Origin: a virus
DNA length: 23,861 nucleotides
Reading direction: 5' to 3' (one strand)
Virus record (IMG/VR): IMGVR_UViG_3300042327_000559
Location: 1-23,861 of that record
Under the pieces are notes generated by a model. The model was not told the DNA's origin. It saw only the letters and a list, made by a program, of their open reading frames with translations, and ran no database searches. Below are positions 681 through 23,584 of the stretch, piece by piece. How positions within the stretch are numbered: the first letter of the stretch is position 1; each line of letters starts with the position of its first letter. A program made the translations under genes and the position numbers.

Positions 681-726
681 TTGCGGCGAATCATATTAAA
701 GTTTTGTTTTGAGTTGCGGCGAGTCA
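681..726 (+). repeat. Direct repeat TTGCGGCGARTCA x2, operator candidate
   Basis: TTGCGGCGAATCA (681-693) and TTGCGGCGAGTCA (714-726) match at 12 of 13 positions and start exactly 33 bp apart, about three helical turns, so a protein bound to both would sit on one face of the DNA. Each copy is also part of an imperfect palindrome (GATTtgcggcGAATC for the first). The second copy overlaps the -35 box of the promoter at 714-742, a normal place for an operator. A shorter relative, TTTGCGGCGA, occurs at 1074-1083. The core TGCGGC is the strand-biased hexamer described in the findings. Confidence 0.45.
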
Positions 727-742
727 CAGAACCTGCTATAAT
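714..742 (+). promoter_or_regulatory. Sigma70-like promoter for the left plus-strand genes
   Basis: TTGCGG (714-719) and a perfect TATAAT (737-742) are separated by 17 bp. A start near 749 would give a leader of about 38 bases carrying AAGGAG (775-780) before the ATG at 787. The -35 box keeps only TTG of the consensus and is embedded in the 13-bp repeat, so the promoter may be activator-dependent or repressed. Confidence 0.5.
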
Positions 743-786
743 ACTTCTAGCTGCTAATGAGGGCAGTGATTAACAAGGAGATTAAA

Positions 787-873
787 ATGGTTTGGTTTGA
801 AATTAAAGAGTTCTTCGTAGCAATCGGTGAGACAGTAAGACACACAGCTACACAGATCTGGGCTAGATTGTAA
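787..873 (+). CDS. 28-aa microprotein, unknown function
   Basis: A short frame, MVWFEIKEFFVAIGETVRHT..., of 28 residues ends at TAA 871-873. It is preceded by a textbook Shine-Dalgarno AAGGAG (775-780) six bases before the ATG, and by the promoter at 714-742, which is the main reason to believe it is translated. The sequence is aromatic-rich and could form an amphipathic helix. It is the first gene after the promoter. I recognise no family. A regulatory leader peptide is an alternative. Confidence 0.5.
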   Translation: MVWFEIKEFFVAIGETVRHTATQIWARL

Positions 874-936
874 GAAACTGATGTTTCTGATATACTTGAT
901 TACTATTACCTATAGGAGAGTGGAAGGATTAACACT

Positions 937-1050
937 ATGAATGAAACGATTACATACGCAGGAGTTGTCTGGCTGATTTGTGGCTGGACTATTGGTAGGA
1001 TTATAGGCATATTGCTTATTGATAGATTGGATAAGCGTAATGATAAGTGA
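937..1050 (+). CDS. 37-aa single-pass membrane microprotein
   Basis: The start ATG 937 has GGAAGGA (922-928) eight bases upstream. The 37-residue product has one hydrophobic segment (about residues 8-28, with GVVWLICGWTIG and IIGILLI) followed by a charged tail (DRLDKRNDK), so it is probably a single-span inner-membrane peptide with the tail in the cytoplasm. Its end overlaps the next small frame by 11 bases, suggesting translational coupling. Family unknown; small phage membrane peptides often act on host envelope functions, but nothing here shows that. Confidence 0.5.
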   Translation: MNETITYAGVVWLICGWTIGRIIGILLIDRLDKRNDK

Positions 1051-1135
1051 GATTGTATTCATGACTGTTATGTTTGCGGCGACTTTCATTATTATTAAAG
1101 GTTTGTGCGGGATTGCAGGGAAATTGATTAAATGA
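1040..1135 (+). CDS. 31-aa hydrophobic microprotein
   Basis: ATG 1040 opens a 31-residue frame (MISEIVFMTVMFAATFIIIK...) ending at TGA 1133-1135. It overlaps the 937 gene by 11 bases and the next gene by the ATGA at 1132-1135, a typical coupled arrangement. The middle is hydrophobic (about residues 4-19) and the end is basic (GKLIK). It has no strong Shine-Dalgarno of its own, so it would depend on re-initiation. The four-base overlaps on this strand support it; otherwise evidence is thin. Confidence 0.4.
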   Translation: MISEIVFMTVMFAATFIIIKGLCGIAGKLIK

Positions 1136-1776: not shown

Positions 1777-3494
1777 AAGTTATTGTTTGTTCTATTGCTA
1801 AGAATGAAGCACAGTTTGTCAAGCGTTGGGCCGAGTCAGCTAAAGATGCTGATGAGGTATGGTTGCTTGATACTGGTAGTACTGATGACACTATTAAGAT
1901 AGCTAAAGAGTGTGGTGTTCATGTTATTGAGAAAGCATGGGAAGATTGGTCTTTTGCGGTGGCTCGAAACCATTTGCTTAATAACCTACCTGATGAGGAT
2001 GCTTGGCTTATTAACTTAGACCTTGATGAAGTATTGATTGATGGTTGGCGCGGGCATGTCGACAGTGCACCAACTGATGTCAACAGATTAAGATATGAGT
2101 ACACGTGGTCATGGAAAGAGGATGGCACACCAGGATTAAAGTATCATGGGGATAAGATTGTGCGTAGACACAGTCACCACTGGGTTAACCGTGTACATGA
2201 GGTTAACATTACAAAGCCAGGACATGAAGAGCGTCAGGCTTTCGTAGGATTACAGATCCACCATCATGCTGACAACACTAAGCCGCGCAGTCAGTATCTT
2301 CCTTTACTTCTTAAAGATGTTGAAGAGAACCCTAACAATGACCGTAATACTTATTATGCTGCAAGAGAATTGTTTTTTCACGGGCGATTTGAAGAGGCAA
2401 CTACTCTTTTCAAGCGTCACTTGATTATGCCTGAGTCTGTATGGAATGCTGAACGCGCATGGTCAATGAGATACCTAGCTAAGATGCATCCTGCTGAGGC
2501 AGAGCATTGGTTGTTGCGTGCTTGTGGTGAGTACCCACATGGTGCTGAGGTATGGACTGACCTAGCTAGACACTACTACATAGCAGAGAACTGGATTGGT
2601 ATGTACTTTGCGGCTAAGCGTGCAATTACCATACCGTACAGTGCAGGATTATATTTGACTGAGCCTGATGCTTATGGTTGGTGGCCTAATGACATGGTTG
2701 CTTTATCTGCTCATCGTATGGGTCTTGATAAGGAAGCAATACAGTATGGTGAGATTGCTCTTGCTTTAAGTCCTGATGATAAAAGATTGAAAGATAATTT
2801 ATTCTTTTATAAGTTGCGCGGATCCAAAATCAATGTAGTCATACCAACCAAGACAAACATCGGTGGCTTGACCAAGCTTGTAGGCCAGTTGCTAGCTGAC
2901 ACCATGGTGAATAAGATTATCATTGTTGCAGATGGCAGTGAAGCTTATAATAATTTAACTGCAATACCAAAGTTTAATAAGGTTATCAAGGTCATGGTCA
3001 ATGAAGGCGTTGGCATCCATGCTATGTGGAACTTAGGCATGAACATCGCAGGCTATGACGGACACATTGCATTCATCAACGATGATGTGAGTCTCGATAA
3101 AGATTGCATGTATGAATTAGGTGGGTCACTGTCAAAGAATCATGACTATGGTTTGATCTGCCCAAGCTATTCAACAGTTAAACCAACAGAGGATAGAGTT
3201 GTCACTGACACATGCCGTAGTAGATACGATGGTACTGGTGGTATGGCCGGCTTCTGCATGGTGCTGGCTGAGAACTTGGTGCCACAGTTCCGCTTTGATG
3301 AGAACATGAAGTGGTGGTATGGTGATGATGAGATAGTTGATTGGGTCACTAAGCAAAACCGTAAGTGTGTTGTTAGTGCGGCGACCAGCTGTACACATGA
3401 TGATTCTAAAACTATAAAGACCAATCCCCCAAAGGACTTTGCTGCAGCAGTAGCAAACGACAAGAGAATATACGAAGGAAAGAAGAATGCATAA
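1773..3494 (+). CDS. Two-domain glycosyltransferase (GT2-type) with helical linker
   Basis: The 573-residue protein appears to carry two family 2-type glycosyltransferase domains. The first (about 1-120) begins MKVIVCSIAKNE, has the nucleotide-sugar motif LLDTGSTDD (31-39), WSFAVARN (59-66) and a DLDE metal-binding motif (83-86), as in TPR-linked family 2 enzymes. Residues about 190-340 are helical and TPR-like. The second domain (about 352-573) starts INVVIPTKTN, has INDD (435-438) as a DxD equivalent and WYGDDE (515-520) near the expected catalytic acid. It should transfer sugars from nucleotide donors in the cytoplasm; the acceptor is unknown. It overlaps both neighbours (ATGA at 1773; the methyltransferase at 3487), implying coupled expression. 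Phage glycosyltransferases modify phage DNA, virion proteins or host surface sugars; no motif chooses between these. Confidence 0.8.
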   Translation: MKVIVCSIAKNEAQFVKRWAESAKDADEVWLLDTGSTDDTIKIAKECGVHVIEKAWEDWSFAVARNHLLNNLPDEDAWLINLDLDEVLIDGWRGHVDSAPTDVNRLRYEYTWSWKEDGTPGLKYHGDKIVRRHSHHWVNRVHEVNITKPGHEERQAFVGLQIHHHADNTKPRSQYLPLLLKDVEENPNNDRNTYYAARELFFHGRFEEATTLFKRHLIMPESVWNAERAWSMRYLAKMHPAEAEHWLLRACGEYPHGAEVWTDLARHYYIAENWIGMYFAAKRAITIPYSAGLYLTEPDAYGWWPNDMVALSAHRMGLDKEAIQYGEIALALSPDDKRLKDNLFFYKLRGSKINVVIPTKTNIGGLTKLVGQLLADTMVNKIIIVADGSEAYNNLTAIPKFNKVIKVMVNEGVGIHAMWNLGMNIAGYDGHIAFINDDVSLDKDCMYELGGSLSKNHDYGLICPSYSTVKPTEDRVVTDTCRSRYDGTGGMAGFCMVLAENLVPQFRFDENMKWWYGDDEIVDWVTKQNRKCVVSAATSCTHDDSKTIKTNPPKDFAAAVANDKRIYEGKKNA

Positions 3495-3990: not shown

Positions 3991-4014
3991 TTGACAATAA
4001 ATAAGGAAGTCCAT

Positions 4015-4182
4015 ATGTACTATGAGAAACTAGAAGAAGTAGATAAAGAAATAGAAGCAATAGAAGCTTGGCAACAAGAACAATTAAAGAAATTGTATGC
4101 TAAGACTGCAAAGAAAATAGCTAAAGCCATGGCCAAGTTGGCTATACACATACCTGAGGAGGTTAAACGTGGACGCAAGTGA
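4015..4182 (+). CDS. Small basic helical protein, unknown
   Basis: I place the start at ATG 4015, not the in-frame TTG at 3991, because AAGGAAG (4003-4009) lies five bases before it. The 55-residue product is almost entirely helical, acidic first (YYEKLEEVDKEIEAIEAW) and lysine- and alanine-rich afterwards, ending VKRGRK; it could be a coiled coil. No family is recognised. It overlaps the next gene by 14 bases. Confidence 0.6.
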   Translation: MYYEKLEEVDKEIEAIEAWQQEQLKKLYAKTAKKIAKAMAKLAIHIPEEVKRGRK

Positions 4183-4441: not shown

Positions 4442-4442
4442 T

Positions 4443-4625
4443 ATGAAGAAGGTTCTTTCTATTATCATCAAGACAACAGGAGATTTAGCATTCACCTATT
4501 CAGGTTTTGCGGTGCTTTATTTTACTTTGTCTGGTGATACTAGAAGGATGGCTACCATTGCAATGGTTGCGGCAAGTGTTGTGCACTATGTGCATCAGAT
4601 AGTCGAGGGTTTAAATGACAAGTAA
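4443..4625 (+). CDS. Small two-span membrane protein
   Basis: This 60-residue protein has two likely membrane helices (about 12-29 and 36-55) joined by a short polar turn containing GDTRR, with a basic start (MKK). Holins and phage membrane accessory proteins have this build, but it lies far from the lysozyme and on the opposite strand, so I do not call it a holin. It has no clear Shine-Dalgarno and starts one base after the preceding stop, suggesting translational coupling. The end overlaps a 35-aa frame by 11 bases. Confidence 0.55.
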   Translation: MKKVLSIIIKTTGDLAFTYSGFAVLYFTLSGDTRRMATIAMVAASVVHYVHQIVEGLNDK

Positions 4626-4722
4626 ACAAGTAGAAGGTCATGTCTCTACCCATGATATAGAGTATACTGCTAATCGTAAGATTAGTTGGAAGAATGATTT
4701 AGCTTTGCGGCAAAGAGGGTGA
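4615..4722 (+). CDS. 35-aa polar microprotein
   Basis: ATG 4615 starts a 35-residue frame (MTSKQVEGHVSTHDIEYTAN...) that ends at TGA 4720-4722, just before the TTG start at 4727. It overlaps the end of the membrane protein by 11 bases and otherwise fills a 101-base gap in a tightly packed operon; CGAGG at 4605-4609 could serve as ribosome site. Polar, basic at the end, no family. It is supported by packing rather than by any motif. Confidence 0.4.
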   Translation: MTSKQVEGHVSTHDIEYTANRKISWKNDLALRQRG

Positions 4723-4726
4723 GCGT

Positions 4727-5125
4727 TTGTTTCAAGAGTTTTTAGATTCATTAGATAAGAAAGACTTTGAAATTAAACGTGACATGTATCGCAATGGCAG
4801 ATTAGTTGTTGAGATGGAACAGAAACATCGTGACCAAGACTGGAAACCATCTGGTCTATCTGTAACTACAGCTAAGTGGTGGGTCTACCTGTTCTCTAAT
4901 GACGCATTCTTGGTGGTTGAAGTTGCACGTTTAAAGAAGTACATTGAAATAAATAATCAGATGGAATTAAAAACATTTGCACCCCGTAGTTACAATCCTA
5001 CAAGGGGATATTTATTATTAGCTGAGGACGTAAGTAAGCTAATGGCTAGCGAAGTGTATGATAGGCCTATTGAACGCAACACAGAGCCTCCTAGAGGGCA
5101 ACCAGGGCAATGTGGTGGAGCATAG
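4727..5125 (+). CDS. Possible PD-(D/E)XK-like small phage protein
   Basis: The frame has no upstream ATG; TTG 4727 follows AGAGGG (4714-4719) by seven bases and is the most plausible start, giving 132 residues. FEIKRD (14-19) followed by a strand VVEME (27-31) and DWKPSGLSVTTAKWW (38-52) resembles the D-x(n)-ExK core plus the W-PSG loop of small nuclease-fold proteins seen in phages. EIK (15-17) would supply the metal ligand and lysine. The C-terminus (PPRGQPGQCGGA) is disordered. This is a fold guess from pattern only; a structural, non-catalytic role is possible. It overlaps the sigma-like gene by 16 bases. Confidence 0.5.
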   Translation: MFQEFLDSLDKKDFEIKRDMYRNGRLVVEMEQKHRDQDWKPSGLSVTTAKWWVYLFSNDAFLVVEVARLKKYIEINNQMELKTFAPRSYNPTRGYLLLAEDVSKLMASEVYDRPIERNTEPPRGQPGQCGGA

Positions 5126-5790: not shown

Positions 5791-6372
5791 ATGAAGAAAG
5801 CAATCAAGTATTATAGATGCCGTGCATGCAACAAAGATTTTTCTGCGCCGATCCGTCAAGGTAGAGACCCACAGTATTGCTCTGATGAATGCAGGGGTAC
5901 TGTTCCACATCAGAAACCAAGACCAACGATATGGTATTTGAATTGCAAGTATTGTAAAAAAGATTGGTCAATGGAACGTGTTAAACAAAGTGGACGCAAG
6001 CCACACTTCTGTCCTGACTGTTATGATGTAGCTAGTAAAGAACGTCATAAGAAAAGACAGAAGGAACGTGACAGAAGTTATACTCCTGAAAAGGAACGTT
6101 CTTATGGTGAAGAAAAGATGGTCATGTGGTTGCCAGCTGAACCGTTAATAAAAGCATTGAAGCAAGGTCATATTAAAGATGAAGACTGGGCTATCCCAAC
6201 ATCTCGTGACCGCAGTTTAATAACATACATGGCTATTAAATTAGGTCTTGAGTATACTTCTGTTGCTCGTTACCTAGAACCAGGTGCAACAATCAGTGCA
6301 TATAAAGCTGATGAGTTTGCTATCCGTTTACGGATTGCATCCTATGCTTATCTGGGGAATGGGGTTTTATAA
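5791..6372 (+). CDS. Zinc-finger / HTH DNA-binding protein, apparent +1 frameshift
   Basis: Two zinc-binding clusters are visible: C10, C13, C30, C34 and C52, C55, C74, C77. A basic linker (about 84-107) follows, then a helix-turn-helix-like part (about 141-180: ITYMAIKLGLEYTSVARYLE, then AYKADEFAIRL). In this frame the protein ends poorly with RIASYAYLGNGVL, but in the +1 frame from base 6332 it continues GLHPMLIWG, a typical end for this type of phage HTH domain. I therefore think the intact gene ran 5791-6553 with one extra base near 6331 (about 253 residues). The start is supported by the promoter at 5754-5783 rather than a ribosome site. It probably acts as a transcription regulator. Confidence 0.7.
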   Translation: MKKAIKYYRCRACNKDFSAPIRQGRDPQYCSDECRGTVPHQKPRPTIWYLNCKYCKKDWSMERVKQSGRKPHFCPDCYDVASKERHKKRQKERDRSYTPEKERSYGEEKMVMWLPAEPLIKALKQGHIKDEDWAIPTSRDRSLITYMAIKLGLEYTSVARYLEPGATISAYKADEFAIRLRIASYAYLGNGVL

Positions 6373-6553
6373 ACTCGAGACGGCTGATCCAGATGCTGTT
6401 GAGAAGAACCGTGAGGCTTCACGAAAGTCCATGGCGAAAGCCCGTGAGCGTCGTATAGATGCTTTGCTGCAGCAAGGTTACAGTCGAGAGTCAATAACAA
6501 ACTCAGGTTACCTCCGCAAACGCGGCGTACCATCTCACGATGACCAGAGTTAA
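6332..6553 (+). pseudogene. Out-of-frame 3' part of the zinc-finger/HTH gene
   Basis: Starting at GGA 6332, one base out of frame with the gene above, 73 codons stay open to TAA 6551-6553. The first residues (GLHPMLIWG) complete the upstream HTH domain, and the rest (about residues 22-45, with EKNREASRKSMAKARERR) is a basic helix. It may be part of a frameshifted gene, a ribosomal-frameshift product, or a separate small protein from ATG 6359 (64 aa). The segment lies antisense to the end of the lysozyme gene, so the open frame could partly be a shadow; the HTH continuation is the argument against that. Confidence 0.45.
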
Positions 6554-6806
6554 TCTGCAACAACCCTGAGTCATAACTTTTATTCTTATTCAGGTGATAT
6601 ATCATCTCACCTTTCTCATTCCATATGGCATTGATTGCTTTGATGCGGCATCTTGATTCGCGCCAAGCAATGTAACTAAACTCTTTTACTGGCAGGCCAG
6701 CAGCTTTAATAGCGGGTTCCCACTTAGGACAACTGTTGGTGGCAGCTGATGCCTGACTAGGTATAGCAAAAAAAGTTATGGCAATAGCCAATATAAGTTT
6801 ACGCAA
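6348..6806 (-). CDS. Secreted lysozyme-like (SLT-type) endolysin
   Basis: The frame is open from 6860, but AAGGAG (minus strand, 6814-6819) lies seven bases before the TTG at 6804-6806, so I start there (152 aa). Residues 1-21 form a signal peptide (RKLILAIAITFFAIPSQASA) with an ASA cleavage site. The mature part is a lysozyme-like transglycosylase fold: catalytic Glu50 in IAWRESRC, GLLQIN (81-86), and NLAAAKHLYDAHGLSPW (110-126). Cys26, 53, 97 and 109 could form disulphides outside the membrane. It should cut peptidoglycan between MurNAc and GlcNAc. It follows the holin-like gene at the end of the virion operon, so host lysis is the likely role. The last 206 bases overlap the convergent HTH gene. 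Confidence 0.75.
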   Translation of the reverse strand: MRKLILAIAITFFAIPSQASAATNSCPKWEPAIKAAGLPVKEFSYIAWRESRCRIKAINAIWNEKGEMIYHLNKNKSYDSGLLQINSGHREMVRRVCGGNLSLLLTLDCNLAAAKHLYDAHGLSPWTFVKPHGSSQQHLDQPSRVYKTPFPR

Positions 6807-6831
6807 TAGTTTTCTCCTTGTTAGGGGTTTA

Positions 6832-7080
6832 TTATTCTGCAGCCTTAGCTTTCTTATCAACCTTGGTAAATACCTGGTTGATTTCTGCAGTGGACAGTTT
6901 ACCGTCGTCCAAGAAGGCTCTTGATAATCCTTCTACTACGGTGGCTACACCAGCCATGCCTGCCATGAAGCAAGCTTTCCATATATCTACGCCGGCAATA
7001 GCGCCAGCACCTATAACACCAAGACCTGAAGCTGCAAATGTTGCAACGATTCTCATAATAATATTGTTAAGTTGTTTCAT
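6832..7080 (-). CDS. Holin-like small membrane protein
   Basis: The 82-residue protein has two hydrophobic stretches (about 9-29, RIVATFAASGLGVIGAGAIAG, and about 32-49, IWKACFMAGMAGVATVVE), separated by a short turn, and a charged, lysine-rich tail that includes DDGKLS and KVDKKAKAAE. This build, plus the lysozyme directly downstream, fits a class II-type holin or lysis membrane protein. ATG 7078-7080 has AAGGAG (7086-7091) five bases upstream; an inner ATG at residue 9 might give a shorter product. Because the lysozyme has its own signal peptide, this protein may trigger lysis by depolarising the membrane rather than by releasing the enzyme (inference). Confidence 0.6.
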   Translation of the reverse strand: MKQLNNIIMRIVATFAASGLGVIGAGAIAGVDIWKACFMAGMAGVATVVEGLSRAFLDDGKLSTAEINQVFTKVDKKAKAAE

Positions 7081-7089
7081 AACTTCTCC

Positions 7090-10000
7090 TTATGGTTTAT
7101 TTCGCTTTTGTTTAATCAAAGGCTCAAGATCTGTATAGTATCTTCTCCACAATTCTGATATCTCTTGGTCACTACTTAATTGTCTAATTGGTATTCCAAG
7201 ATAACTTAATAAAGCATTAAACTGAACTACTTTAAACATCTCTTCTTCTGTTACTTCTCTAGTGCCAAATACAGCTTTAATTATTTTGTTATTGTTTAAA
7301 TCAATAAACTTTTTTTGCGCCGAATCACCAGGAAGTAAGTTGCCAATTACTAATAATTCTCTAGCTACTATATTTAAGTTTGGTAATACCGAACGTGCTG
7401 CATATGCAAATTGCTGTATTGATTTTGGCGTTGGATCTGATGGGTCATAAATTTGTTTTTGTGTATAAGAATTTCTTCCATAAACATATGCATCTAACAA
7501 TCCTCTCATCGTAGGATTTGCAGAGCTAAACAATTCAGGTACAGACATACTCCACCATGCTTGACCTGTTCCAGGAATTGCTAAATCCCACGAAGCATAG
7601 AAGTTATCACCAACAATTAATTTGTAAGCTCCTCTTCCTTTCCAAGATTGTGGCAAGAAAGGACTTGTTCCTTCCTTATCTTCAGTTGCATCTCTAAATC
7701 TATTGTAAGCGTTGTAAACACCTGGGTTCACAAGCATGTTCATGTATTGTGTTGGGGCATTGTAGACCATAAAATTCCAGAATGGAAAGAATGCTCTTCC
7801 CTTTTCGTCAAGCTTTGATAAATCACTATAATCAAGTAACGCTCTTGATGTTCTTGCGCCAGCCAATTGACCACTTAAACCTTGCTGTATTCCATCCCAC
7901 GTCATAGCAAAACGCATATACTCTTCAGCCAATGCTCCGTACTTACGCACTGCTGCAAGAGGTAATACGTTTCCTGGACCGCTTATAATAGGAATCTTAC
8001 CTCCTATTTCTGAAGCTTTCTTAGTAACATTTTTTAATACTGTTCCTTCGCGGCCAATTCCTTTAGCTTCCAATCCAAATATACCTATTGGTCTACCACC
8101 AAAGCCTTTAGCTAAATCACTTATTTCACCAGAAGATGCTCCTGAATAAACAAAATTTTCTTTAATGTTTTGTACAAAATTATCTTTCACAAGAACACTT
8201 TCACTTTTATTTACACTTCTTGCAAAATCTTCTACCCAACTATCAAAGTCAATACCATTAGCTGCAGCTTTTTTCCAACTACGAAGCATATCAACAGCAA
8301 AGTTTGCGTTACCAGGACGAGCACCAAATGCCGCCATAACGATTATACCGCCTTGAATGTTTCTAACAATAGTTCCAGGCAATGACAACATTGAACCTTT
8401 TTGAACTTGATATAGTTTTTCTGCAAAAGTACCAAATGCTCTTCTAACAGGACCAGATTGAGTCATGGTCACAACATTTCTTACCATATCATTTATATCA
8501 TTGCGGGTTGCCACACCAACATTTGGCATCTTTTCAAAGATTGCTTCAACACCATCTGAAATCATTGGCGCTAAACTTCTCCAAGCTTCTTCAGAACTTT
8601 CAAATATATTTGTTCTAATTCCACTTATTTCATCAGCCATAGCGATTGCTAAGTTATCTGCTTCAGCACCTACTACATCTAAACTAACTGGTGGAAGTGT
8701 TCCATTCTTAACCAATCGATCTATCTGAGCAACTTTTTCATCAATGGCAAGAATCAATTCATCAACTTGATTTGTATAAACAATATCATCAGAAACTACT
8801 TCTCTAACATACTTTAAATCATCTATTATACTTTGTATCTTTGGGTATGACATCGTTGCAAGAACGTCTGGAGTAAGTACTGATCCTATTCTGCGTTCTA
8901 AATTAGTAAGAGGTGTTAATTCTGATTTAATACCTTCTCTAGTTGTAATCTTTGCTCGCGTAAGAACATCAGATCCACGGTCCATCCATTGTTCTAATGC
9001 AAAGATATGTGCTTGCATTCGTGCATGCTTGGCAACAAATCTGGCAGTTGCTTCAGTAAAATCTTCTGTATAAAATTTAAACTTATATCCTTGTTCTTTT
9101 AAGATTTCATTTAATCTTTTTACGCCACCAAGTAAGTCAGCATCCGTTAAGCTATGGCCAAAGAAGTTAGCACCTTTAACTAATTTATTCTCTATAAAAC
9201 CATGTATCAATTGTTCTGGTTCAACGCCAAGATTTTTAGCAATTACTTGTATATCTTCTGCGTGACTTGTAGCCCAAGTAATAAACTCTCTTGATTGTGC
9301 GCGAGGAAAGTAGCTCGTTGGTCTTGAAAGTGGACGTCCACCCACAGCTTTAATTGCTTTATTCGTTGCATTATATGTCTCATCAATTTGTTTTGTATAA
9401 TCAGAAAATGCAGCACGTTCTGCTGGTAGCATCTTTGATACTGTTTTTCCAGATGGAACATCTAAAGCTCTTGTAACAATAGGTACATCAATATCATCAA
9501 TTGCTTTTACCGATGGTGCAAATTTACTAGCAATCTGTGTTCCATAAAAGCTTTTTGCGGCCGTTGCCATACTGTCTGCAGTTAGTATACTAAGAAAATC
9601 TGCAGCTTCTTCTGCAGTAATACTACGAAATTTAGCAGTTCCAGGAACTCTTATTTTTCCTGTAGATAAATATGTTCTAAGTTTTAATCTTCCAGCTTTT
9701 CCTAATAAATCATCTACACCAGGTTTTCCTACAAGTTCTAATACATTTGTGCGACCTAATACTGATAAAAATCCATTAACACGAATATTGCCAACAGCTT
9801 GTCCAAGCCATTTAGTAATATATTTAGATCCAGGAAGAGTAAATAAATTTGCATAACGTATACCTTGGGAGTATCCACGAATTATTGCAGCTTGAGCATG
9901 CTTTGCCTGAGAATAAGCTGTCAATCCTTTTGCTGCTATATCCTTTGCTAATGCTGGGTTAACAAATTTTTCAGTTCTTTCTGCTAAAGCAATTTCTGCT

Positions 10001-11427
10001 GGAGTAGCTTTTCTAACAATTACTCTGCCTGTATTTATTAGTTCTACAGCACTTGCAATTTCGTCCGCTGAAGCTGCAGCAGGTGAAGCTATAATTTTTT
10101 GTGCGGCAGCAAGTTCTTCTGGTATTGCATTGCGTAAGATGTTTCCTGTTTCAACAGTTTCTTTAGCGCCTTGATAGATATCTAAAACATCAGCCGCTTC
10201 TGCCTGACGAGCTTTTGGACCGGCAACTCTTCTTGCAGACTTATTTCCAATTTCAGTAACAACACCTTTTAAATCTTTTTCTAAGTTAATAACAGCTTTT
10301 TCAGCAGCATTTAAAGATGCTCGCTTAATTGTTAATTGACCAGCAAGAACTGGATTAGTAACTTCTCTTGCGGCCAAGCGTGCAAGGTCATCTACTTCTT
10401 TTGTTAATTGACGAACTGCTAATTCTGCAGCTTCTCTTGCTAAGAGTTTTTGCGAATGCACTGCAACTATTTTTCCAGCTTTGCTAGCACCATACGTAGC
10501 CATTTCTGCTGCGCTTCTTGCTGCTAAAGTTTTAGCTCCTCCACCAACACCAGAAAGAAGAGTCAAAGGGTCAGTGCCTATTGTTTGACCACCTGCTACA
10601 AGTCTATCAACCCATAGGTCAAGATTTCCCCATTTAGGAACTCCAAAATTTTCATTACTTCTTAAAGGAAAAGCTTTACCTGGTCCAAATTCTGGGTCAT
10701 TAATTTGTTTAAAGAAATCATCAAAACTTGCATCACCTTTATCTATTCTAACTCCACCTACACCAGCAAATACAGCTCTAGATATTAAGTCTTCTACAAT
10801 GCCAAACCTGTCACGAGGAATTGCATCACTAGTTTCTTTTAACGCGGACCAAAGACTCTTCCATGTATATTTATCAAATGTACCTAGGACTCCTAGTTTT
10901 CCTTTTTCTGCATCACCTAAAAAGAATTTTCCTGGTCTAGATTGAAAAATATTTTCACCAATATAAAAATCACCTTTGCCTGGATCCAAATCAAATTTAT
11001 TAAAGACATCATATACTATGCCTTCAACACCAGAAGGTTCTTGATTTCCTTTTCCAAATACTACTTCCGAAGCAACTACTGGTGAAACTACATCACGAGC
11101 AGCATCAGTTGCTGCACGTACTTCACGTACTCCTGTAACAGTTCTAGGAGCTGGTTTATAGGTTGATGTAATACCTGATTGTAAAGATTTTTCATATGCA
11201 AGAACAGGGTCTATAGGTCTTGGTACTGGTCCAGTAAGTCCTATTATTGGAGCACTTATGCGAGCAGCAGCATCTGATCTAATAGCTTCTTCATACATCT
11301 TTACTGGATCTGGTGCTTGCTTTTGTTCGTTAGCTGAAGCAGATACTTCAATAAACTGTTTTTGTTTAGGGTTTAACTTAGCAAGTGATGAAGCTGTAGG
11401 ATCTACCTTTGGTGGTATTGGTGGCAT
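7090..11427 (-). CDS. Giant internal virion / DNA-ejection-type protein
   Basis: At 1445 residues this is the largest gene, mostly helical and rich in Ala, Lys and Glu, with long coiled-coil-prone stretches (about 300-480). Near residues 1205-1225 is FFPFWNFMVYNAPTQY, a motif style I associate with large phage proteins ejected with the genome. No transglycosylase, nuclease or protease motif is obvious. Its place, after two other internal-type proteins and before lysis genes, matches the internal core protein position in podoviruses (T7 gp16 is 1318 aa). Likely role: a core complex that forms a DNA channel across the envelope (inference). AAGGAA precedes the ATG at 11427. Confidence 0.6.
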   Translation of the reverse strand: MPPIPPKVDPTASSLAKLNPKQKQFIEVSASANEQKQAPDPVKMYEEAIRSDAAARISAPIIGLTGPVPRPIDPVLAYEKSLQSGITSTYKPAPRTVTGVREVRAATDAARDVVSPVVASEVVFGKGNQEPSGVEGIVYDVFNKFDLDPGKGDFYIGENIFQSRPGKFFLGDAEKGKLGVLGTFDKYTWKSLWSALKETSDAIPRDRFGIVEDLISRAVFAGVGGVRIDKGDASFDDFFKQINDPEFGPGKAFPLRSNENFGVPKWGNLDLWVDRLVAGGQTIGTDPLTLLSGVGGGAKTLAARSAAEMATYGASKAGKIVAVHSQKLLAREAAELAVRQLTKEVDDLARLAAREVTNPVLAGQLTIKRASLNAAEKAVINLEKDLKGVVTEIGNKSARRVAGPKARQAEAADVLDIYQGAKETVETGNILRNAIPEELAAAQKIIASPAAASADEIASAVELINTGRVIVRKATPAEIALAERTEKFVNPALAKDIAAKGLTAYSQAKHAQAAIIRGYSQGIRYANLFTLPGSKYITKWLGQAVGNIRVNGFLSVLGRTNVLELVGKPGVDDLLGKAGRLKLRTYLSTGKIRVPGTAKFRSITAEEAADFLSILTADSMATAAKSFYGTQIASKFAPSVKAIDDIDVPIVTRALDVPSGKTVSKMLPAERAAFSDYTKQIDETYNATNKAIKAVGGRPLSRPTSYFPRAQSREFITWATSHAEDIQVIAKNLGVEPEQLIHGFIENKLVKGANFFGHSLTDADLLGGVKRLNEILKEQGYKFKFYTEDFTEATARFVAKHARMQAHIFALEQWMDRGSDVLTRAKITTREGIKSELTPLTNLERRIGSVLTPDVLATMSYPKIQSIIDDLKYVREVVSDDIVYTNQVDELILAIDEKVAQIDRLVKNGTLPPVSLDVVGAEADNLAIAMADEISGIRTNIFESSEEAWRSLAPMISDGVEAIFEKMPNVGVATRNDINDMVRNVVTMTQSGPVRRAFGTFAEKLYQVQKGSMLSLPGTIVRNIQGGIIVMAAFGARPGNANFAVDMLRSWKKAAANGIDFDSWVEDFARSVNKSESVLVKDNFVQNIKENFVYSGASSGEISDLAKGFGGRPIGIFGLEAKGIGREGTVLKNVTKKASEIGGKIPIISGPGNVLPLAAVRKYGALAEEYMRFAMTWDGIQQGLSGQLAGARTSRALLDYSDLSKLDEKGRAFFPFWNFMVYNAPTQYMNMLVNPGVYNAYNRFRDATEDKEGTSPFLPQSWKGRGAYKLIVGDNFYASWDLAIPGTGQAWWSMSVPELFSSANPTMRGLLDAYVYGRNSYTQKQIYDPSDPTPKSIQQFAYAARSVLPNLNIVARELLVIGNLLPGDSAQKKFIDLNNNKIIKAVFGTREVTEEEMFKVVQFNALLSYLGIPIRQLSSDQEISELWRRYYTDLEPLIKQKRNKP

Positions 11428-11440
11428 TTATATTCCTTAA

Positions 11441-12565
11441 TTATTTAGGAAGCAAAAGTCTTGCTTCAAGCACTTGCGACCTAGGTGTAATTCCTGCTTT
11501 AAGCCAACTGTTTATAACGTTTTCTCTTACATCTTTTAGACCTTGTGCTTGAACTTCTGAAGCACGTTTTCCTTCAAGTGAAGTTCCCTTTAACGGATTA
11601 ACATCAACTATTTTAGGAGGTTCATTTCCAGTTCTACCTTTATAAAATTTACCCATTGCTGCAGCTTTTGATAATTCTATAGATGGACCATAAGGAGTAC
11701 CACCATAAGTATTATATGTATTTGCTTTAGTCAAAGCCTCAAGTTCTTTTGCTCTAACGTCAGCAAGTGGATGTTTAATAATACCCTTTTTCCAATCAGT
11801 TTCAAATCCATACTTAAGTTTAGAGCTAGGTATTTTTAAAGAAAATTCTGTAGGAACATCTGATTTTGATTCTAACAAAAAAGCTTGCTTTGCTTTAAAT
11901 TTTGCTTCTGGTATTTCTGTAACATATGAATCATATAATGCTTCAGCACGTTTAGAAGCTGTAGCTATATCAAGATTATCAAATCCTGTGTTATCTCCAG
12001 GAGGAGGTTTTTTTCCCGAGGAAGGATTATTAAAATCATCTCCTATTTTAGCAATGTAACCAAGTAATTCTGTTTTTGTAGTGCCAGCTTCAATCTTAGC
12101 AATTATTGCTCTTTCAAATGACCCCATTGGTGCATTTTTTTTAGCATTAACCCAATCACCACTTGCAAATTGTTCTGCTTGAGCTTCAATTTGTTTGAGT
12201 TTTTCTTCTCCTTCAGTGCCAATAATATAATCAGTAATTTCTTGGTCAATTTCAATGTTTGGAAGAATAGGTGACCTAGGATCTATTGCTCTAACTATTG
12301 CACCTATTTTTGGGTCAGCCAAATCTTCAACACTTCTAGGAGCACCTGGCTTACTTGACTTTAATTCATTTAAAACTACAACTGCATACACACGTGCTTG
12401 TTCCATTGGAATGTTATATTGAGCTGAAATTTGTGCAGCTGTAGCAGCAATTATATTTTCGTCAATTGCACTAGGTGCTTTCTTAGCTGTTTTTTTAACT
12501 GTAGGTTTAGCTGTTCCAGTTTTTTGATTAGCTATTATCTGTAAAATTTCTTGACGTGTTACCAT
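11441..12565 (-). CDS. Probable internal virion protein, unknown fold
   Basis: This 374-residue protein begins with a possible helical cap (VTRQEILQIIANQ), then a lysine-rich linker (about 18-30, TAKPTVKKTAKKAP), and continues as an acidic helical protein with a Pro/Gly-rich break (about 187-197, SGKKPPPGDNTG). The C-terminal part holds a YNTYGGTPYGPS stretch. I recognise no family. It lies between the 376-aa Gln-rich protein and the giant ejection-type protein, separated by 5 and 13 bases, so a virion-core role is inferred. AGGAATT gives a short ribosome site before ATG 12565. Confidence 0.5.
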   Translation of the reverse strand: MVTRQEILQIIANQKTGTAKPTVKKTAKKAPSAIDENIIAATAAQISAQYNIPMEQARVYAVVVLNELKSSKPGAPRSVEDLADPKIGAIVRAIDPRSPILPNIEIDQEITDYIIGTEGEEKLKQIEAQAEQFASGDWVNAKKNAPMGSFERAIIAKIEAGTTKTELLGYIAKIGDDFNNPSSGKKPPPGDNTGFDNLDIATASKRAEALYDSYVTEIPEAKFKAKQAFLLESKSDVPTEFSLKIPSSKLKYGFETDWKKGIIKHPLADVRAKELEALTKANTYNTYGGTPYGPSIELSKAAAMGKFYKGRTGNEPPKIVDVNPLKGTSLEGKRASEVQAQGLKDVRENVINSWLKAGITPRSQVLEARLLLPK

Positions 12566-12570
12566 AATTC

Positions 12571-13701
12571 CTACTTTATTTTCTTGGTAATTTTTTTAAA
12601 TTCGTTTTTAACCTGTTCTACGGTTGCATTTGGATTTGCTGCAATAAAGTTATCGATCCTCTTATTCAATGCAGTGTTACTTGCTTTAATTGGTATAGCT
12701 TTCAACTGTTGTACTGCAGTTAATTGAGCTGGCTTATCAGCTGGCTTATCTTCGTCTTTAACTACTTTAGGCTTTAATAGTTCTGCTAGCCAAGATGGTT
12801 GCTCACCAGTTGCAGTAGTATAACCTCCGCCAACTAAAGTGCCAACTGCATCTTGCAATGCTTGCTCACGTGCTACAGCTTGCTGTTGTGCCTCTAGCTG
12901 AGCTTTTTGCTTTTGCTGTAAGAGTTGATATAATGCTTGTTGTTGAAGTTGACTTAGATTAGTTCCACTTAATGTGCGGCTCATTTGCTCTTCAGCTAAT
13001 CTTGATTGATTTGAAGCTAATTGTGTTGCAGCTAAAGTTTGAAGCAACCTATCATAGTTATTTGCTCCACCAGCTGATGCAGCATTTAATGAGTTGATTA
13101 ATGGATTTACTCCCTGTGAGTTAACACCTTGCGAAGCTGCGTACGTTGCTAAGTCATTAGTTATTTGCGGGGCCATTGCAGCTCGTGCTTGGCTATATGT
13201 ATTAATAGGATTGTTTGTTAAATAATTACGCAATGCATCGTAACCAGCAGTTGTTTGTTTTTGAGCTGTATCATATTGGTTGCCAATATATGTAGTTCCA
13301 GTATCGTTTATATCCTTTAACAATGTTGAGATTGAACTTGGAACTTGTCCAGCTGTTTTTAATTGTTCTAATAAATACTTTGTTCTTTCAGAAGCTCCAC
13401 CAGCTGCAGTTTGTGCTTTAGCTAATTCAAGTTCATATTGCTTTAATCTTGTTGCGGCATTTTGTTCTTGGACAGCTTTATCTGCCCCAAATGTTCCACC
13501 TTGTTGAAGATAATTTGCAAGAATATCATTTAAAGGATTATTAGTATTACTTTTGTCAGTGATAGGTACGCATACGCCATTAACTTTCTTTTGGCCAGGA
13601 CCACATGATACGTCATCTTTACTATTATCACCGCAATCTGGGCCTGGGCTTTGACCGGCTGCTTTTTCTAAATCAGTACATGTACAAGTTGCGCACGCCA
13701 T
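12571..13701 (-). CDS. Gln/Ala-rich probable internal virion protein, Cys-rich N-terminus
   Basis: Residues 1-45 contain six Cys (3, 6, 8, 23, 33, 44; start MACATCTCTDLEKA), an unusual cluster that could bind metal or form disulphides. The rest (376 aa in total) is Gln-, Ala- and Leu-rich with heptad-like stretches, for example LSQLQQQALYQLLQQKQKAQ, and a basic end (FKKITKKIK). Such low-complexity helical proteins are common among podovirus internal core or adaptor proteins such as T7 gp14/gp15, though no direct relation is claimed. It starts 43 bases after the 148-aa protein's end, with AGGAACT upstream. Confidence 0.5.
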   Translation of the reverse strand: MACATCTCTDLEKAAGQSPGPDCGDNSKDDVSCGPGQKKVNGVCVPITDKSNTNNPLNDILANYLQQGGTFGADKAVQEQNAATRLKQYELELAKAQTAAGGASERTKYLLEQLKTAGQVPSSISTLLKDINDTGTTYIGNQYDTAQKQTTAGYDALRNYLTNNPINTYSQARAAMAPQITNDLATYAASQGVNSQGVNPLINSLNAASAGGANNYDRLLQTLAATQLASNQSRLAEEQMSRTLSGTNLSQLQQQALYQLLQQKQKAQLEAQQQAVAREQALQDAVGTLVGGGYTTATGEQPSWLAELLKPKVVKDEDKPADKPAQLTAVQQLKAIPIKASNTALNKRIDNFIAANPNATVEQVKNEFKKITKKIK

Positions 13702-13744: not shown

Positions 13745-14191
13745 CTACCTTAGTGCTAAAAGTTTTTGCGCATCTGCGGCTATTTGACGTGCTTTGTTTG
13801 CTTCTATATCGCTTAATCCCTGTTGGTAATTAGCAAGACCTTGTTCTCCTGCTAGGTCATAACCCCTTTGCTGAGAGGCTAGATCCGTTTTGGCATAACT
13901 TAAGTTTCTAGCTCTATCACTAGCATACTGGTTAAGAGCTCTATTATATAGACCAGATCTAACGCCTACCCCTTTAAGCCCACGTCTGCCATAAGATGCA
14001 GTAAGCTTTGGAACTTCCCCTAAACCACCAGTAGCAGTGGTTTTAAAAGCAGATTCTTCAAGTTGTGTAATTGGACGCTGACCTTGGATTTCTGCAAGGT
14101 ACTTTTGGTATGCATTAAGGGCGGCCTGATTAGCATAAGATTGAGAAAGATTTCTTCTTTGTTGTTCAAATAGACTTAAATCATATGCCAC
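13745..14191 (-). CDS. Small helical virion-associated protein, GTG start
   Basis: GTG at 14189-14191 follows AGAGGT, giving 148 residues beginning AYDLSLFEQQRRNL. The protein is helical and rich in Tyr, Gln and Ala; a Gly-rich middle (about 55-80, GGLGEVPKL, RRGLKGVGVRSG) separates two helices. It resembles the small internal virion proteins that precede larger core proteins in podoviruses, and its neighbours support that, but I recognise no family. Upstream is one of three AT-rich promoter-like elements (14200-14225), so the internal-protein block may have its own transcript. Confidence 0.5.
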   Translation of the reverse strand: MAYDLSLFEQQRRNLSQSYANQAALNAYQKYLAEIQGQRPITQLEESAFKTTATGGLGEVPKLTASYGRRGLKGVGVRSGLYNRALNQYASDRARNLSYAKTDLASQQRGYDLAGEQGLANYQQGLSDIEANKARQIAADAQKLLALR

Positions 14192-16175: not shown

Positions 16176-17975
16176 TTAAGTACTCCTAATCTTTCTTCTT
16201 TTATATTTGTAAGCTATTGAATTTAATCCCCATTTTCTACCTGGGAATTCATCTTGATATGTTGCTTCATCTGGACCTAAGAATTGCAATTGTATTGCAT
16301 AACCTCTTCCAAGTGGTGAAACACCTTTTCTTTTAAGGGCTGCGCCCTCTGTAGTAAAACCATACGTTGCAGAATTGGGATCTAATGGCACAGGTGGTGG
16401 ATCTGCTACATATACTTCACCAGGATTAGATACCGTAGAATATACTGTACCACTAGATGTAGGTGATAAGAACATACTTACAGTTCCACCAATTGGATTA
16501 GATTCATCATAGTTTTTATAACGATTTAATCTAACAATTGTATTACTACCTACATCTTTAAATACAAAGTAAGGACGAATAAAAGTTTTTAACTGTGCGT
16601 ATGTTGCATCGCTAAACCAAGACGTAGTGTAATATGATGGAAATCTTCCATTAAAACCTTCGCCTGGTGCTATATCGTCAGTAATATTATTATAATCGTC
16701 TACATAATAAACATATGGAAAATCATCATCTTGACCTATCATTAAATAATATGGTGTGTCGTCAGCTGTTCTCCAATCGCAACCAGAAAGTAATGCAAAA
16801 CCAGCTACACCTGCAGGTACTTCAGCTTCAAATGAAGGTGCAGTTTGGAACATTGTATAAGCACCATTTGGTCCAATAGTTGCATCAAATATTAAATTAA
16901 CAGATGCATAAGCTGGTGGTGCTCCTTGAGTATTTGGACGGTATGGCAATGACACCCAAACTCTTTGACGCACAAATGAAAGCGTTATAGTACTAGTTGC
17001 AGTAGGATTAACTTCATTATTAATAATAATTGGTCTTATGCGTTCGAAGATATCTTGTACTCCATTGCGATTATAAAAGAATAATCCTTGCGGCCAGTCA
17101 AAGAAATACACTCCACCGTTGCCAGCAACAGCTTGTTGTGGTGTATCAATACCTACGTTGGTTGATACTTCTACAAGTTGGAATGAGTCAGCATCATATC
17201 CCATGAGAAGATAAACAGCTTTTTGTTTAAATATTAATAATTGTCCATCAACTATTTGAATACCACGTATACCATCTCCGCCTGCAATAATGTCTATGTA
17301 GTCATCTTGAAACCAGTTCTCTGGTGAACTTTCATGCGACCAACGAAGTCTATTAGGATATGCAGTTAGTGTAGGAGTTGCATCACTATTATATTCTTTT
17401 GTATTAGCTACGAATAATTTATTAGCGTGAGCAATTGTTAATTCTGCGCGAGGCATATAACCACCAGTTGGGAGTTGATATGGCTGCCATGTTGGACCAG
17501 ATGCAGTTAGTAAAGTTGCGTAGGTGTCGCCTACTTTCCACTTGTACATGTTTGGTGCATCTTTACCTAATGCAATATAAAGGGTATCTTCCCACTGTGT
17601 AAATGATGCACCGTTTAAAGATTTAACATTCAATGGAGTTAATGATGCGCTATTTAAATAACTAAAGTTATCACCAGAAGAAAAATAAACTCTACCATCA
17701 TGAGAACCAGTTACTTGATAACCAGTTGATAACATTATTTGTGGAGCTGATAAAAATTTATAATTATAACTTGTTTTAGGATTCCATGTTCCAGTATGTG
17801 CTATTGCATTAGGATTTTTTGTTTGAAAGCCGGCACGGGAAAACACACCACCACGTGGGTCAATCTCTACGTTAAGCATTCCTGGTGATTCATTAGTCTT
17901 TAATTGGAATTGGTCAGCACGAAAGTTAAGCCCACCGGTAAAGTTAAAAGCTTCTTGTACTACAATGTTAGCCAT
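16176..17975 (-). CDS. Tail nozzle protein (T7 gp12-like)
   Basis: The start GGLNFRADQFQLKTNESPG, followed by a GGVFSRAGFQTK segment, is the style of podovirus tail tubular B/nozzle proteins, which form the six-fold tail tip. The 599-residue product has beta-rich repeats resembling a propeller (for example GVYFFDWPQGLFFYNRNGVQ near the middle) and a basic C-terminus (YKYKRRKIRST). T7 gp12 is longer (794 aa), so this is a smaller member or a distant relative. It lies three bases after the adaptor gene, the usual order, and has only a weak ribosome site, suggesting coupling. Confidence 0.6.
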   Translation of the reverse strand: MANIVVQEAFNFTGGLNFRADQFQLKTNESPGMLNVEIDPRGGVFSRAGFQTKNPNAIAHTGTWNPKTSYNYKFLSAPQIMLSTGYQVTGSHDGRVYFSSGDNFSYLNSASLTPLNVKSLNGASFTQWEDTLYIALGKDAPNMYKWKVGDTYATLLTASGPTWQPYQLPTGGYMPRAELTIAHANKLFVANTKEYNSDATPTLTAYPNRLRWSHESSPENWFQDDYIDIIAGGDGIRGIQIVDGQLLIFKQKAVYLLMGYDADSFQLVEVSTNVGIDTPQQAVAGNGGVYFFDWPQGLFFYNRNGVQDIFERIRPIIINNEVNPTATSTITLSFVRQRVWVSLPYRPNTQGAPPAYASVNLIFDATIGPNGAYTMFQTAPSFEAEVPAGVAGFALLSGCDWRTADDTPYYLMIGQDDDFPYVYYVDDYNNITDDIAPGEGFNGRFPSYYTTSWFSDATYAQLKTFIRPYFVFKDVGSNTIVRLNRYKNYDESNPIGGTVSMFLSPTSSGTVYSTVSNPGEVYVADPPPVPLDPNSATYGFTTEGAALKRKGVSPLGRGYAIQLQFLGPDEATYQDEFPGRKWGLNSIAYKYKRRKIRST

Positions 17976-19309: not shown

Positions 19310-19344
19310 AACCTATTTTAACTAGCCGAAGCTAATTAAGTTTA

Positions 19345-20322: not shown

Positions 20323-20354
20323 TTTATTTTCTCCTTATAATGTTAGTGTTTTGG

Positions 20355-21125: not shown

Positions 21126-21149
21126 TTGGAATCCTATCCTTCTAATTGG

Positions 21150-21182
21150 TTGTTCCTATATATATGTAAAGTTTTTTACATA
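21150..21182 (-). promoter_or_regulatory. AT-rich hairpin and promoter-like element, copy 1
   Basis: In the 73-base gap between portal and scaffold, TATGTAAA (21163-21170) and TTTACATA (21175-21182) form an 8-bp stem with a 4-base loop. Overlapping it on the minus strand is TTTACAT followed by ATATATAGGAACAA, shared with the element at 19208-19236 and partly with 14200-14225. The ending TATAGGAA recalls single-subunit phage polymerase promoters, but no such polymerase is in the window. A function in late transcription is inferred from placement and recurrence. Confidence 0.4.
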
Positions 21183-21198
21183 AACCTTATTACTTGTA

Positions 21199-23322
21199 TT
21201 ACTGACCGGCTTGTCTTTGCTGTTCAGCTAATATTATTGCTTGAATTAAATCTGGTGGCATGCCTTCTAATCCAGCTGGTACCTCTGGCCCAGAAGGAAG
21301 TTCTCCTTGAGCTTGGGCTAAAATAGCTGCTAATTCAGGAGGTAATCCTTGAGTGCCACCTTCAGCTGGTAAACCCCCTGGTGCTCCACCCTGCAGTGCA
21401 GCTAATAATTCTGGAGGTAGACCTTCCATACCGGCCTGTGGAGGACCACCTTGACCGCCTAGTAAAGCAGCTAGCAACTCAGGTGGCAGACCAGCTAACT
21501 CAGGTGGTAATTGTTCCTGTGGTGGGGCAGCTTGACCACCTTGTAAAGCAGCCATTAATTCAGGAGGTAGACCCTGTCCACCTTGCTCTGATTGCATTGC
21601 TGCCATTTGGTCTGGAGCCATACCTGGTGGCAAACCCTGCCCTTCTAAAGCTGCTTGGTCTGGAGTCATACCTTCTGGTCCTTGTGGTGCTGGTGCTTCT
21701 TGTAAAAATGCTCCTGCATTCTTTACACCAAATCCAGTACTTAAAACATACTCAGCCAACTTATTCAAATTAACAAGTCCTGCTTGGGCAAATGGTTGCA
21801 TTGCTGAAACTATCTGGAGTGCCATATCTCTACGGAAAGCTTCATTACGTGGAGCTGTAGATCCAGCCTCAACATTAAAGTCAAACTCACCAGCAATATA
21901 ATCTTTATCAAAAGTTAACCATACAGGTGCATTTTCAGTACCTACTATTCTTACAGTTTGTTCACCAGTTAAATACTGTTGAGCAAGCATTATAAGATTA
22001 GAAGCACAAGCTGCTATACAATTTTCAATTTGAATAAGTTTTTCAGATACTCTAGCATTTCCAGCTTCAGCAATGATTGATGCTTCGCGGGCGGTACGAG
22101 TAGTTTCTGGAATAGATCCACGTTGATATTCAGATACACCTGATACACGGTCAATGTCTGCTTCAATTGAAGCGCTCATCTGATAGAACTCAGGTGGGTT
22201 AATGTAGGCCGGCATTGCAGCAACTACGTTACTTAAGTTCTCATTGCCTTTAACTGGCACCAATACGTTGTCATCGTCTGATGCCAAAGCCTGACGTCCA
22301 ACATCATCGAATGCTGATTCACTAAATAGATACTTACGGGAGAAGCGTTTTCTATGGTTCATCATCTGTGTACGAGTTTCGTTTAATTCGTACTGCAGTG
22401 GTTCAATTGCTTCAAGTTCACCCATTGGATAAAAGAATCCAGGAATCTCATAGTTGCGCAACATAATGAATGGATGACCAAATACATATGGCATCTTTAT
22501 TGGCTTGACTAAGAACTTGTCACCAGTGTCTGAGAATATGCACATCTCACCAGTATCAACATTGTAATACTCATAGATATTGCACATAGCTTCTTCTGTG
22601 TCATAGTTATAATCATAAGCATTGGTAGTTAGATAATCTATTGCTGCTGTATTAACAGCTGGTCCTACGCTTTGTCTTGCTGAATAATCATAACGTTCAT
22701 CGTTCTTAACATCTTTTAATGTGCGGCGACTTTTTTGTGCAATCCAACGCAGGTCATTCATATCTGTTGCATAAGGATCTACATACATATTAAATGGGTC
22801 AACGCGCTCTAAAAATGGACGGTCTTCTCTAATTACAAATGTTGATTCAACATCACCTGTTGGTGGATTCTCCATACTTGCAGCTTCATCAGCAGTGTCT
22901 TGAATCTTATCAAGCTTTGCTTCTTCAACAAAACGATAACCAGTTTTAACCCAACCATGACCAATAATCAAATAGTCTTTTGCTGCTCTTTGAAACTCTG
23001 GTTGACAACCATAATGCTGCCACCAATAGTTAATAATTGATTCAGTTACTACAGCCTTGTCACCGTCTTCTGGTCTACGTGGATTAACATTAATCTTTGG
23101 ACGACCAATAGCAATTGCAGGAGCTAGAGTATTAATAGTTGAGAATGCAACGTTAACAAGCAATCTGTCACCTACACCAGCACCACGATAATGCCTACCG
23201 CGATATAAGTTAATTAAACGTTGCCAAAGTTGAATATAATTTTGTTGTTCTAATACCTTTTGTGCTAAGTTAAGTTTCTGTCTATACTGACTTAACTTAT
23301 CTGAGTTACTTTGACGTGCCAT
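21199..23322 (-). CDS. Portal protein with repetitive C-terminal extension
   Basis: The first 540 or so residues of this 707-aa protein look like a podovirus-style portal: basic helical start, GRHYRGAGVGDRLLVNVAFS (about 43-62), AAKDYLIIGHGWVKTGYRF (about 118-136), FLERVDPFNMYVDPYATDM (about 170-188) and a stem region with SGVSEYQRGSIPETTRTA. Twelve copies would form the ring through which DNA is packaged and ejected. From about residue 554 to the end the sequence turns into Gly/Pro/Gln-rich repeats. The gene starts one base after the 86-aa gene's stop with a weak ribosome site (GTGGGAT), implying coupling. Scaffold and capsid genes follow. Confidence 0.8.
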   Translation of the reverse strand: MARQSNSDKLSQYRQKLNLAQKVLEQQNYIQLWQRLINLYRGRHYRGAGVGDRLLVNVAFSTINTLAPAIAIGRPKINVNPRRPEDGDKAVVTESIINYWWQHYGCQPEFQRAAKDYLIIGHGWVKTGYRFVEEAKLDKIQDTADEAASMENPPTGDVESTFVIREDRPFLERVDPFNMYVDPYATDMNDLRWIAQKSRRTLKDVKNDERYDYSARQSVGPAVNTAAIDYLTTNAYDYNYDTEEAMCNIYEYYNVDTGEMCIFSDTGDKFLVKPIKMPYVFGHPFIMLRNYEIPGFFYPMGELEAIEPLQYELNETRTQMMNHRKRFSRKYLFSESAFDDVGRQALASDDDNVLVPVKGNENLSNVVAAMPAYINPPEFYQMSASIEADIDRVSGVSEYQRGSIPETTRTAREASIIAEAGNARVSEKLIQIENCIAACASNLIMLAQQYLTGEQTVRIVGTENAPVWLTFDKDYIAGEFDFNVEAGSTAPRNEAFRRDMALQIVSAMQPFAQAGLVNLNKLAEYVLSTGFGVKNAGAFLQEAPAPQGPEGMTPDQAALEGQGLPPGMAPDQMAAMQSEQGGQGLPPELMAALQGGQAAPPQEQLPPELAGLPPELLAALLGGQGGPPQAGMEGLPPELLAALQGGAPGGLPAEGGTQGLPPELAAILAQAQGELPSGPEVPAGLEGMPPDLIQAIILAEQQRQAGQ
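21205..21660 (-). repeat. Degenerate GLPPEL-type repeats in the portal tail
   Basis: The portal's C-terminal 150 residues repeat a unit close to GLPPELLAALQGG: I see GLPPELMAALQGG, GLPPELLAALLGG, GLPPELLAALQGG, GLPPELAAILAQ and GMPPDLIQAI, plus shorter QLPPEL and GLPPGM forms, spaced by Gly/Gln/Pro linkers. At DNA level the plus strand shows repeated TCAGGAGGTAGACC-like blocks. Each unit could be a short amphipathic helix. Such repeats invite copy-number changes and short-read assembly errors. Confidence 0.7.
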
Positions 23323-23323
23323 A

Positions 23324-23584
23324 TTAACAATCCCACTTCTTTAATGCCAACGCTTTACGTGTTGGTCTTCCTTTAGAATCTTTCATTGGTCCTGGATTTC
23401 CTTCCATCCTTGCGCAAAATGATTTTCTTCTTGCTGCGGCCTTTGGTGACTTCGCTGCTTGCTTAGCGGATACTGGTGGTTTTAAGTTCATACCTTCAGC
23501 TTTTGCTGATGCACGGCCTTTAGCATTAAGTCCACCTGTAGGGCTTTTGCCTTCTTTCCTTTGCCATGCAGGAGTCTTAGCCAT
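23324..23584 (-). CDS. DUF6321-like small basic protein
   Basis: MAKTPAWQRKEGK, GGLNAKGRASA and RRKSFCARM (53-60) match what I recall of DUF6321, a family of about 80-100 residue phage proteins. It is strongly basic, with one conserved-looking Cys57 and a KKWDC end, and should bind nucleic acid or acidic partners. Function unknown. It starts in a TAATG overlap with the 53-aa gene and ends one base before the portal gene, so three genes here are translated in series. Confidence 0.65.
   Translation of the reverse strand: MAKTPAWQRKEGKSPTGGLNAKGRASAKAEGMNLKPPVSAKQAAKSPKAAARRKSFCARMEGNPGPMKDSKGRPTRKALALKKWDC

Follow-up and report, generated by a model that had tools for sequence, protein, structure and literature searches.

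A strand-polar hexamer, TGCGGC, held in one orientation in a group of phages and tentatively read as the target of a one-strand nicking system

Ever since T5, phages have been known to carry strand-specific nicks in their DNA, on whose function there is no agreement. Short words that are polar and over-represented, such as KOPS and other polar chromosome motifs, act on chromosomes. In phage tf, 14 nicks lie in 5'-TACT/RTGMC-3', all on the top strand even though its genes form two convergent blocks, and the relatives of tf carry a one-letter variant of the motif, likewise on one strand only (PMC3517423). Phage T7 has 36 EcoP15I sites, all in the same orientation (PMC3874151), and Chi is over-represented in lambdoid phages that lack recombinases (PMC3784561). 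Here, we analysed a complete virus record, IMG/VR IMGVR_UViG_3300042327_000559 (23,861 bases, hereafter the window), in which the hexamer TGCGGC occurs on one strand only. The data show an oriented word under selection at the DNA level, and TGCGGC, or in a looser form TGCGG[C/G], would serve as a strand-polar recognition site. The most likely reading, tentative as it is, would be site-specific nicking of the kind seen in phages tf, phiKMV and T5, perhaps using the protein encoded at 4727-5125.

The minus strand of the window carries a block of capsid, scaffold and portal genes, and the plus strand carries a block of small genes. An exact recount gave 17 TGCGGC and no GCCGCA on the plus strand, with a ratio of 23:3 for the core GCGGC; these counts and all 17 coordinates agreed with the first-pass annotation. 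Its division of the sites at about 6.4 kb, with 7 to the left and 10 to the right, was also correct, the 7 on the left being 4 outside called genes and 3 in plus genes. When the hexamers of the window were ranked by raw strand bias, TGCGGC was second and GTTTTT (23:1) was first; such a ranking is dominated by T-rich words and coding effects and so makes a poor test. A null was then built by shuffling synonymous codons within each gene and shuffling intergenic DNA by dinucleotides, in 1000 rounds. Under this null, 3.5 forward and 2.3 reverse sites were expected in the window, and the forward-minus-reverse z for TGCGGC was 6.9, the highest among all hexamers. The best hexamer of each shuffled window had a 95% point of 4.4, and no shuffle reached 6.9. 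Other G-rich hexamers, named in the annotation as a possible source of equal bias, did not match TGCGGC once coding was controlled. The effect in the window was mostly a gain of forward sites (17 vs. 3.5), and the zero reverse sites alone were unremarkable (P ~0.10).

Relatives were gathered by capsid, portal and glycosyltransferase searches, and a search of 50,697 phage records with the window gave no near match. Phage size in this group was about 37.7 kb, and the 23,861-base record is probably a fragment of a phage genome. The same bias was found in relatives' contigs of 16 to 38 kb and about 40% GC, with forward:reverse counts of 25:2, 20:4, 13:0, 14:0 and 20:1 in G001 (circular unit), G002, G014, G020 and G022, respectively. 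Nine related genomes pooled gave 146:15, with about 47:22 expected. In relatives, the word lies on one strand nearly but not absolutely, and reverse sites, which the annotation had suggested might prove equally dense elsewhere, were about a tenth as frequent as forward sites. Single-base variants of TGCGGC were weak or flat in the pooled relatives, except TGCGGG; an opposite signal at TGCCGC was largely due to its overlap with TGCGGCA. TGCGGG was favoured over TGCGGC in two relatives, G766 (7:0) and G778 (10:0), and was the top hexamer independent of gene direction in G766 alone and in G766 with G009, at modest counts. The TGCGGC bias was not found in G009-G013 (43 to 47% GC) or in the distant record MW202803. 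In G010-G013, the best oriented word independent of gene direction was TGGCTT or TTGGCTT (97:46, and 20:1 between genes), which is possibly their own counterpart of TGCGGC.

The orientation did not follow the genes. In the nine genomes, forward:reverse counts were 17:4 in plus genes (expected 5.9/7.2), 102:9 in minus genes (expected 38/15) and 27:2 between genes (expected 2.2/1.6), the last being the strongest class with about twelvefold enrichment. When words were ranked by agreement across these three classes, TGCGGC was first in two subclades taken separately and in three later-added genomes. Sites unshared in aligned stretches were overwhelmingly forward, with 16:3, 12:1 and 7:0 for G002/G001, G003/G002 and G016/G022, respectively; the orientation was therefore maintained and not merely inherited. 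TGCGGC was more conserved (39 of 61) than its permutations (170 of 392). In G001, the polarity ran round the whole 37,661-base circular unit without any flip though GC skew changes sign, and the spacing of the sites was near random (coefficient of variation 0.91). The G001 contig itself is 47.8 kb long and holds a block at 3.6-10 kb and 40.9-47.7 kb in two diverged copies, plus an exact 127-base repeat, which suggests a 37,661-base circle and a piece of a related phage joined in assembly.

An artefact of coding context, in which mostly one-way genes and codon-pair preferences mimic an orientation, is very improbable. Most genes are indeed minus-coded, and TGGGTC, CCACCA and ACCAG mainly reflect the coding of minus genes; together with TGCGCG, these oriented words were set aside as coding effects. 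The flip or loss of bias that such an artefact predicts in plus genes and intergenic DNA did not occur, and the lead of TGCGGC in separate subclades and later-added genomes also speaks against it. Codon use and GC skew were ruled out as the cause by the synonymous shuffles and the gene-direction classes, so that the annotation's view of codon use was borne out. Its headline proposal was that the phage had escaped a host type III restriction system recognising TGCGGC, a single orientation being tolerated since cutting requires two opposed sites. As the main cause this is unlikely. The likeness to T7, which prompts it, is that of an asymmetric hexamer with every site in the window pointing one way, as with the 36 EcoP15I sites recounted here, and reverse TGCGGC in the nine genomes was somewhat below expectation (15 vs. 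22). The same null applied to the EcoP15I word in T7 gave 36:0 against 23.6/9.5, so that one orientation was lost and the other stayed close to expectation, whereas TGCGGC gained one orientation threefold (146 vs. 47) and tolerated the other. Adjacent opposed sites, the substrate of a type III enzyme, were absent from the window but present in 12 of 17 biased contigs, and the strongest enrichment, between genes, is left unexplained. What stood of the annotation's interpretation was that the bias exists, depends on neither gene direction nor codon use and is kept in relatives. The evidence favours the side of its fallback, an oriented signal for replication, recombination or packaging. An oriented replication or packaging signal as such, for example one-strand priming in unidirectional replication or distributed sites setting the direction of packaging, has a rather low probability, somewhat above that of restriction escape. 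Uniform polarity round the whole circle would suit it; the near-random scatter of the sites and the lack of the word in relatives with the same terminase family would not. Moreover, the scanned open reading frames (ORFs) of this phage group yielded neither a primase nor a replicative helicase, and the primase sites known to us are shorter than TGCGGC.

The main rival is that TGCGGC is the host's Chi-like site, kept to switch RecBCD or AddAB from DNA degradation to recombination, and oriented because only one end, that of an injected genome or a rolling-circle tail, is attacked. This is a real but somewhat less probable possibility. By analogy with lambda, a Chi would be expected on the coding strand of the late genes; TGCGGC lies on the opposite strand. 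No polymerase, recombinase, or Gam-like or other RecBCD-inhibitor gene was found among the ORFs scanned, an absence that is provisional because the scan covered a part of the ORFs and many of them matched no family. Because of this absence, and since recombinase-less phages gather Chi (PMC3784561), Chi was ranked next after nicking. TGCGGC shares with Chi in such phages the form of a short G-rich word above coding expectation, and GCGG is contained in the Chi-like words AGCGG of B. subtilis and GAAGCGG of S. aureus (PMC8022716). The null used for TGCGGC showed strong enrichment of Chi in P1 (31:19 vs. 4.2/2.4), and Chi in T5 was 7:1. Known phage Chi, such as that of P1, are weakly polar, and the polarity of TGCGGC is far stronger. 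The Holliday-junction nuclease RusA (PF05866), encoded by all five unbiased relatives first compared, with no copy found in any of the 14 biased contigs, would agree with a Chi-like role, but G768 has RusA, apparently as a separate occurrence, and retains a weaker bias. G766 and G768 carry both RusA and the phrog_13596 protein described below. RusA was thus rejected as the switch of the bias and is only a lead.

Host leads were few. Relatives of the glycosyltransferase pointed weakly to Actinobacteria, while capsid-family matches were found in 9 of 399 Pseudomonadota genomes and in 0 of 297 genomes of the actinobacterial class searched. A capsid alignment search of genome_contigs for the host gave no match. 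One candidate actinobacterial metagenome-assembled genome showed no enrichment of TGCGGC (277 vs. 269 expected), which would count against Chi, and RecC was not found in its family.

The features of the window are collected in Table 1.

Table 1. TGCGGC sites in the window and the gene of the candidate reader protein
Feature	Position	Strand	Context
TGCGGC site	682..687	+	outside called genes
TGCGGC site	715..720	+	outside called genes; overlapping TTGCGG 714-719 = possible -35 box, TATAAT 737-742
TGCGGC site	1075..1080	+	outside called genes, shortly upstream of gene at 1132
TGCGGC site	2609..2614	+	plus gene, xxT GCG GCT, Ala-Ala
TGCGGC site	3377..3382	+	plus gene, xxT GCG GCG, Ala-Ala
TGCGGC site	4568..4573	+	short plus ORF, xxT GCG GCA, Ala-Ala
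TGCGGC site	4706..4711	+	outside called genes, shortly upstream of gene starting 4727
phrog_13596 protein	4727..5125	+	resembles a nuclease by eye (FEIKRD, NGR..VE, SG..VT.AKWWVY); candidate reader of TGCGGC
TGCGGC site	6644..6649	+	inside minus ORF 6348-6860, lysozyme-like
TGCGGC site	9556..9561	+	minus gene, GCC GCA, Ala-Ala
TGCGGC site	10102..10107	+	minus gene, GCC GCA, Ala-Ala
TGCGGC site	10369..10374	+	minus gene, GCC GCA, Ala-Ala
TGCGGC site	12975..12980	+	minus gene, AGC CGC ACA, Ser-Arg-Thr
TGCGGC site	13453..13458	+	minus gene, GCC GCA, Ala-Ala
TGCGGC site	13775..13780	+	minus gene, GCC GCA, Ala-Ala
TGCGGC site	17089..17094	+	minus gene, TGG CCG CAA, Trp-Pro-Gln
TGCGGC site	22722..22727	+	portal gene, CGC CGC ACA, Arg-Arg-Thr
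TGCGGC site	23435..23440	+	minus gene, GCC GCA, Ala-Ala

The site at 715 overlaps a promoter-like pair at 714-742, with TTGCGG and TATAAT separated by a 17-base spacer, and TTTGCGGCGA stretches of a similar kind recur at 681 and 1074. A promoter (-35) role for TGCGGC fitted the site at 715 only and was rejected. Positions 1-260 of the window form a non-coding leader rich in G runs (5 to 7 G near 51-58, 79-83 and 151-157). Among the nine pooled genomes, TGGGTCA was a second strongly oriented word (83:6 vs. 26:8); it lay almost wholly in minus genes and was absent between genes, and therefore probably reflects codon context. The Shine-Dalgarno-like word GGAGG was strongly depleted inside the genes of the same nine relatives (CCTCC in minus genes, 56 vs. 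178 expected). The late region of G002 (6739-13144) encodes a sulfotransferase and a glycine-rich protein along with tail-fibre-like proteins that have collagen repeats. The scanned ORFs showed neither an integrase nor a repressor.

The first candidate for an enzyme acting at TGCGGC is the phrog_13596 protein encoded at 4727-5125. Judged by inspection, which is not proof, it may be a PD-(D/E)XK-type nuclease; its relatives conserve FEVK.DR, NGR..VE and SG..VT.AKWWVY, and it had no Pfam match. The protein was found in 13 of 14 biased contigs in the same gene neighbourhood, the 14th not covering the region, while G010-G013 had neither the protein nor the TGCGGC bias. G770 and G771 share only the phrog_13596 gene with the group, and in them TGCGG[C/G] was tilted to the other strand (9:39 vs. 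9.8/18.9 in G770), which there too is opposite most genes.

In the nicking system that we favour, a sequence-specific enzyme would read TGCGG[C/G] on one strand and make interruptions at this short motif on that strand only; a genome with its sites confined to one strand would be spared double-strand breaks. The 4727-5125 protein would be the first candidate nickase. The fuller proposal is more doubtful, at about the standing of the Chi alternative or slightly below it: the small phrog_13596 protein would read TGCGG[C/G] on one strand and probably nick it, the genome would have evolved one-way sites, and word and enzyme would be co-evolving between relatives. Several points weigh against nicking by this protein. 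The nuclease assignment was made by eye, and the AlphaFold model of the protein (predicted local distance difference test score, pLDDT, 43) was too poor to use. G009 has the protein yet is without a clear bias, and the forward bias is also missing from four phages of another group that carry distant phrog_13596 copies. A single lineage of biased genomes is compatible with the trees, and the association of gene and word therefore rests on few independent events. The nicks of tf were observed, whereas those at TGCGGC are predicted from contig sequences; the tf consensus has 9 bases and TGCGGC has 6; and tf sites keep similar positions in relatives, whereas many TGCGGC sites turn over.

TGCGGC is dense and strongly polar, the scan of its phage group found no replication or recombination genes, and relatives have changed or lost the word. 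Chi sites are hard to find beyond a few model bacteria, and TGCGGC makes the questions of nicking and of Chi testable. The codon-controlled polarity scan, set against T7 and P1 for comparison, is applicable to any phage collection.

Compared with the described systems, TGCGGC resembles KOPS in being polar, over-represented and short, but its polarity spans a whole phage circle without a flip, whereas KOPS act on chromosomes. The sequence GCGCGGTG, tried as a T5 nick consensus, was not enriched in T5 and was dropped; the published consensus is a different one. With the nicks of tf, the phiKMV-like phages and T5, TGCGGC shares a short motif repeated genome-wide on one strand and kept in relatives. 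As in tf, the strand of the motif is independent of gene direction, and the one-letter variant in the relatives of tf is matched here by the shift to TGCGGG in G766 and G778. TGCGGC is denser than the tf nick motif. TGCGGC combines a gain of sites with strong polarity, and the nick systems offer the closest anatomy.

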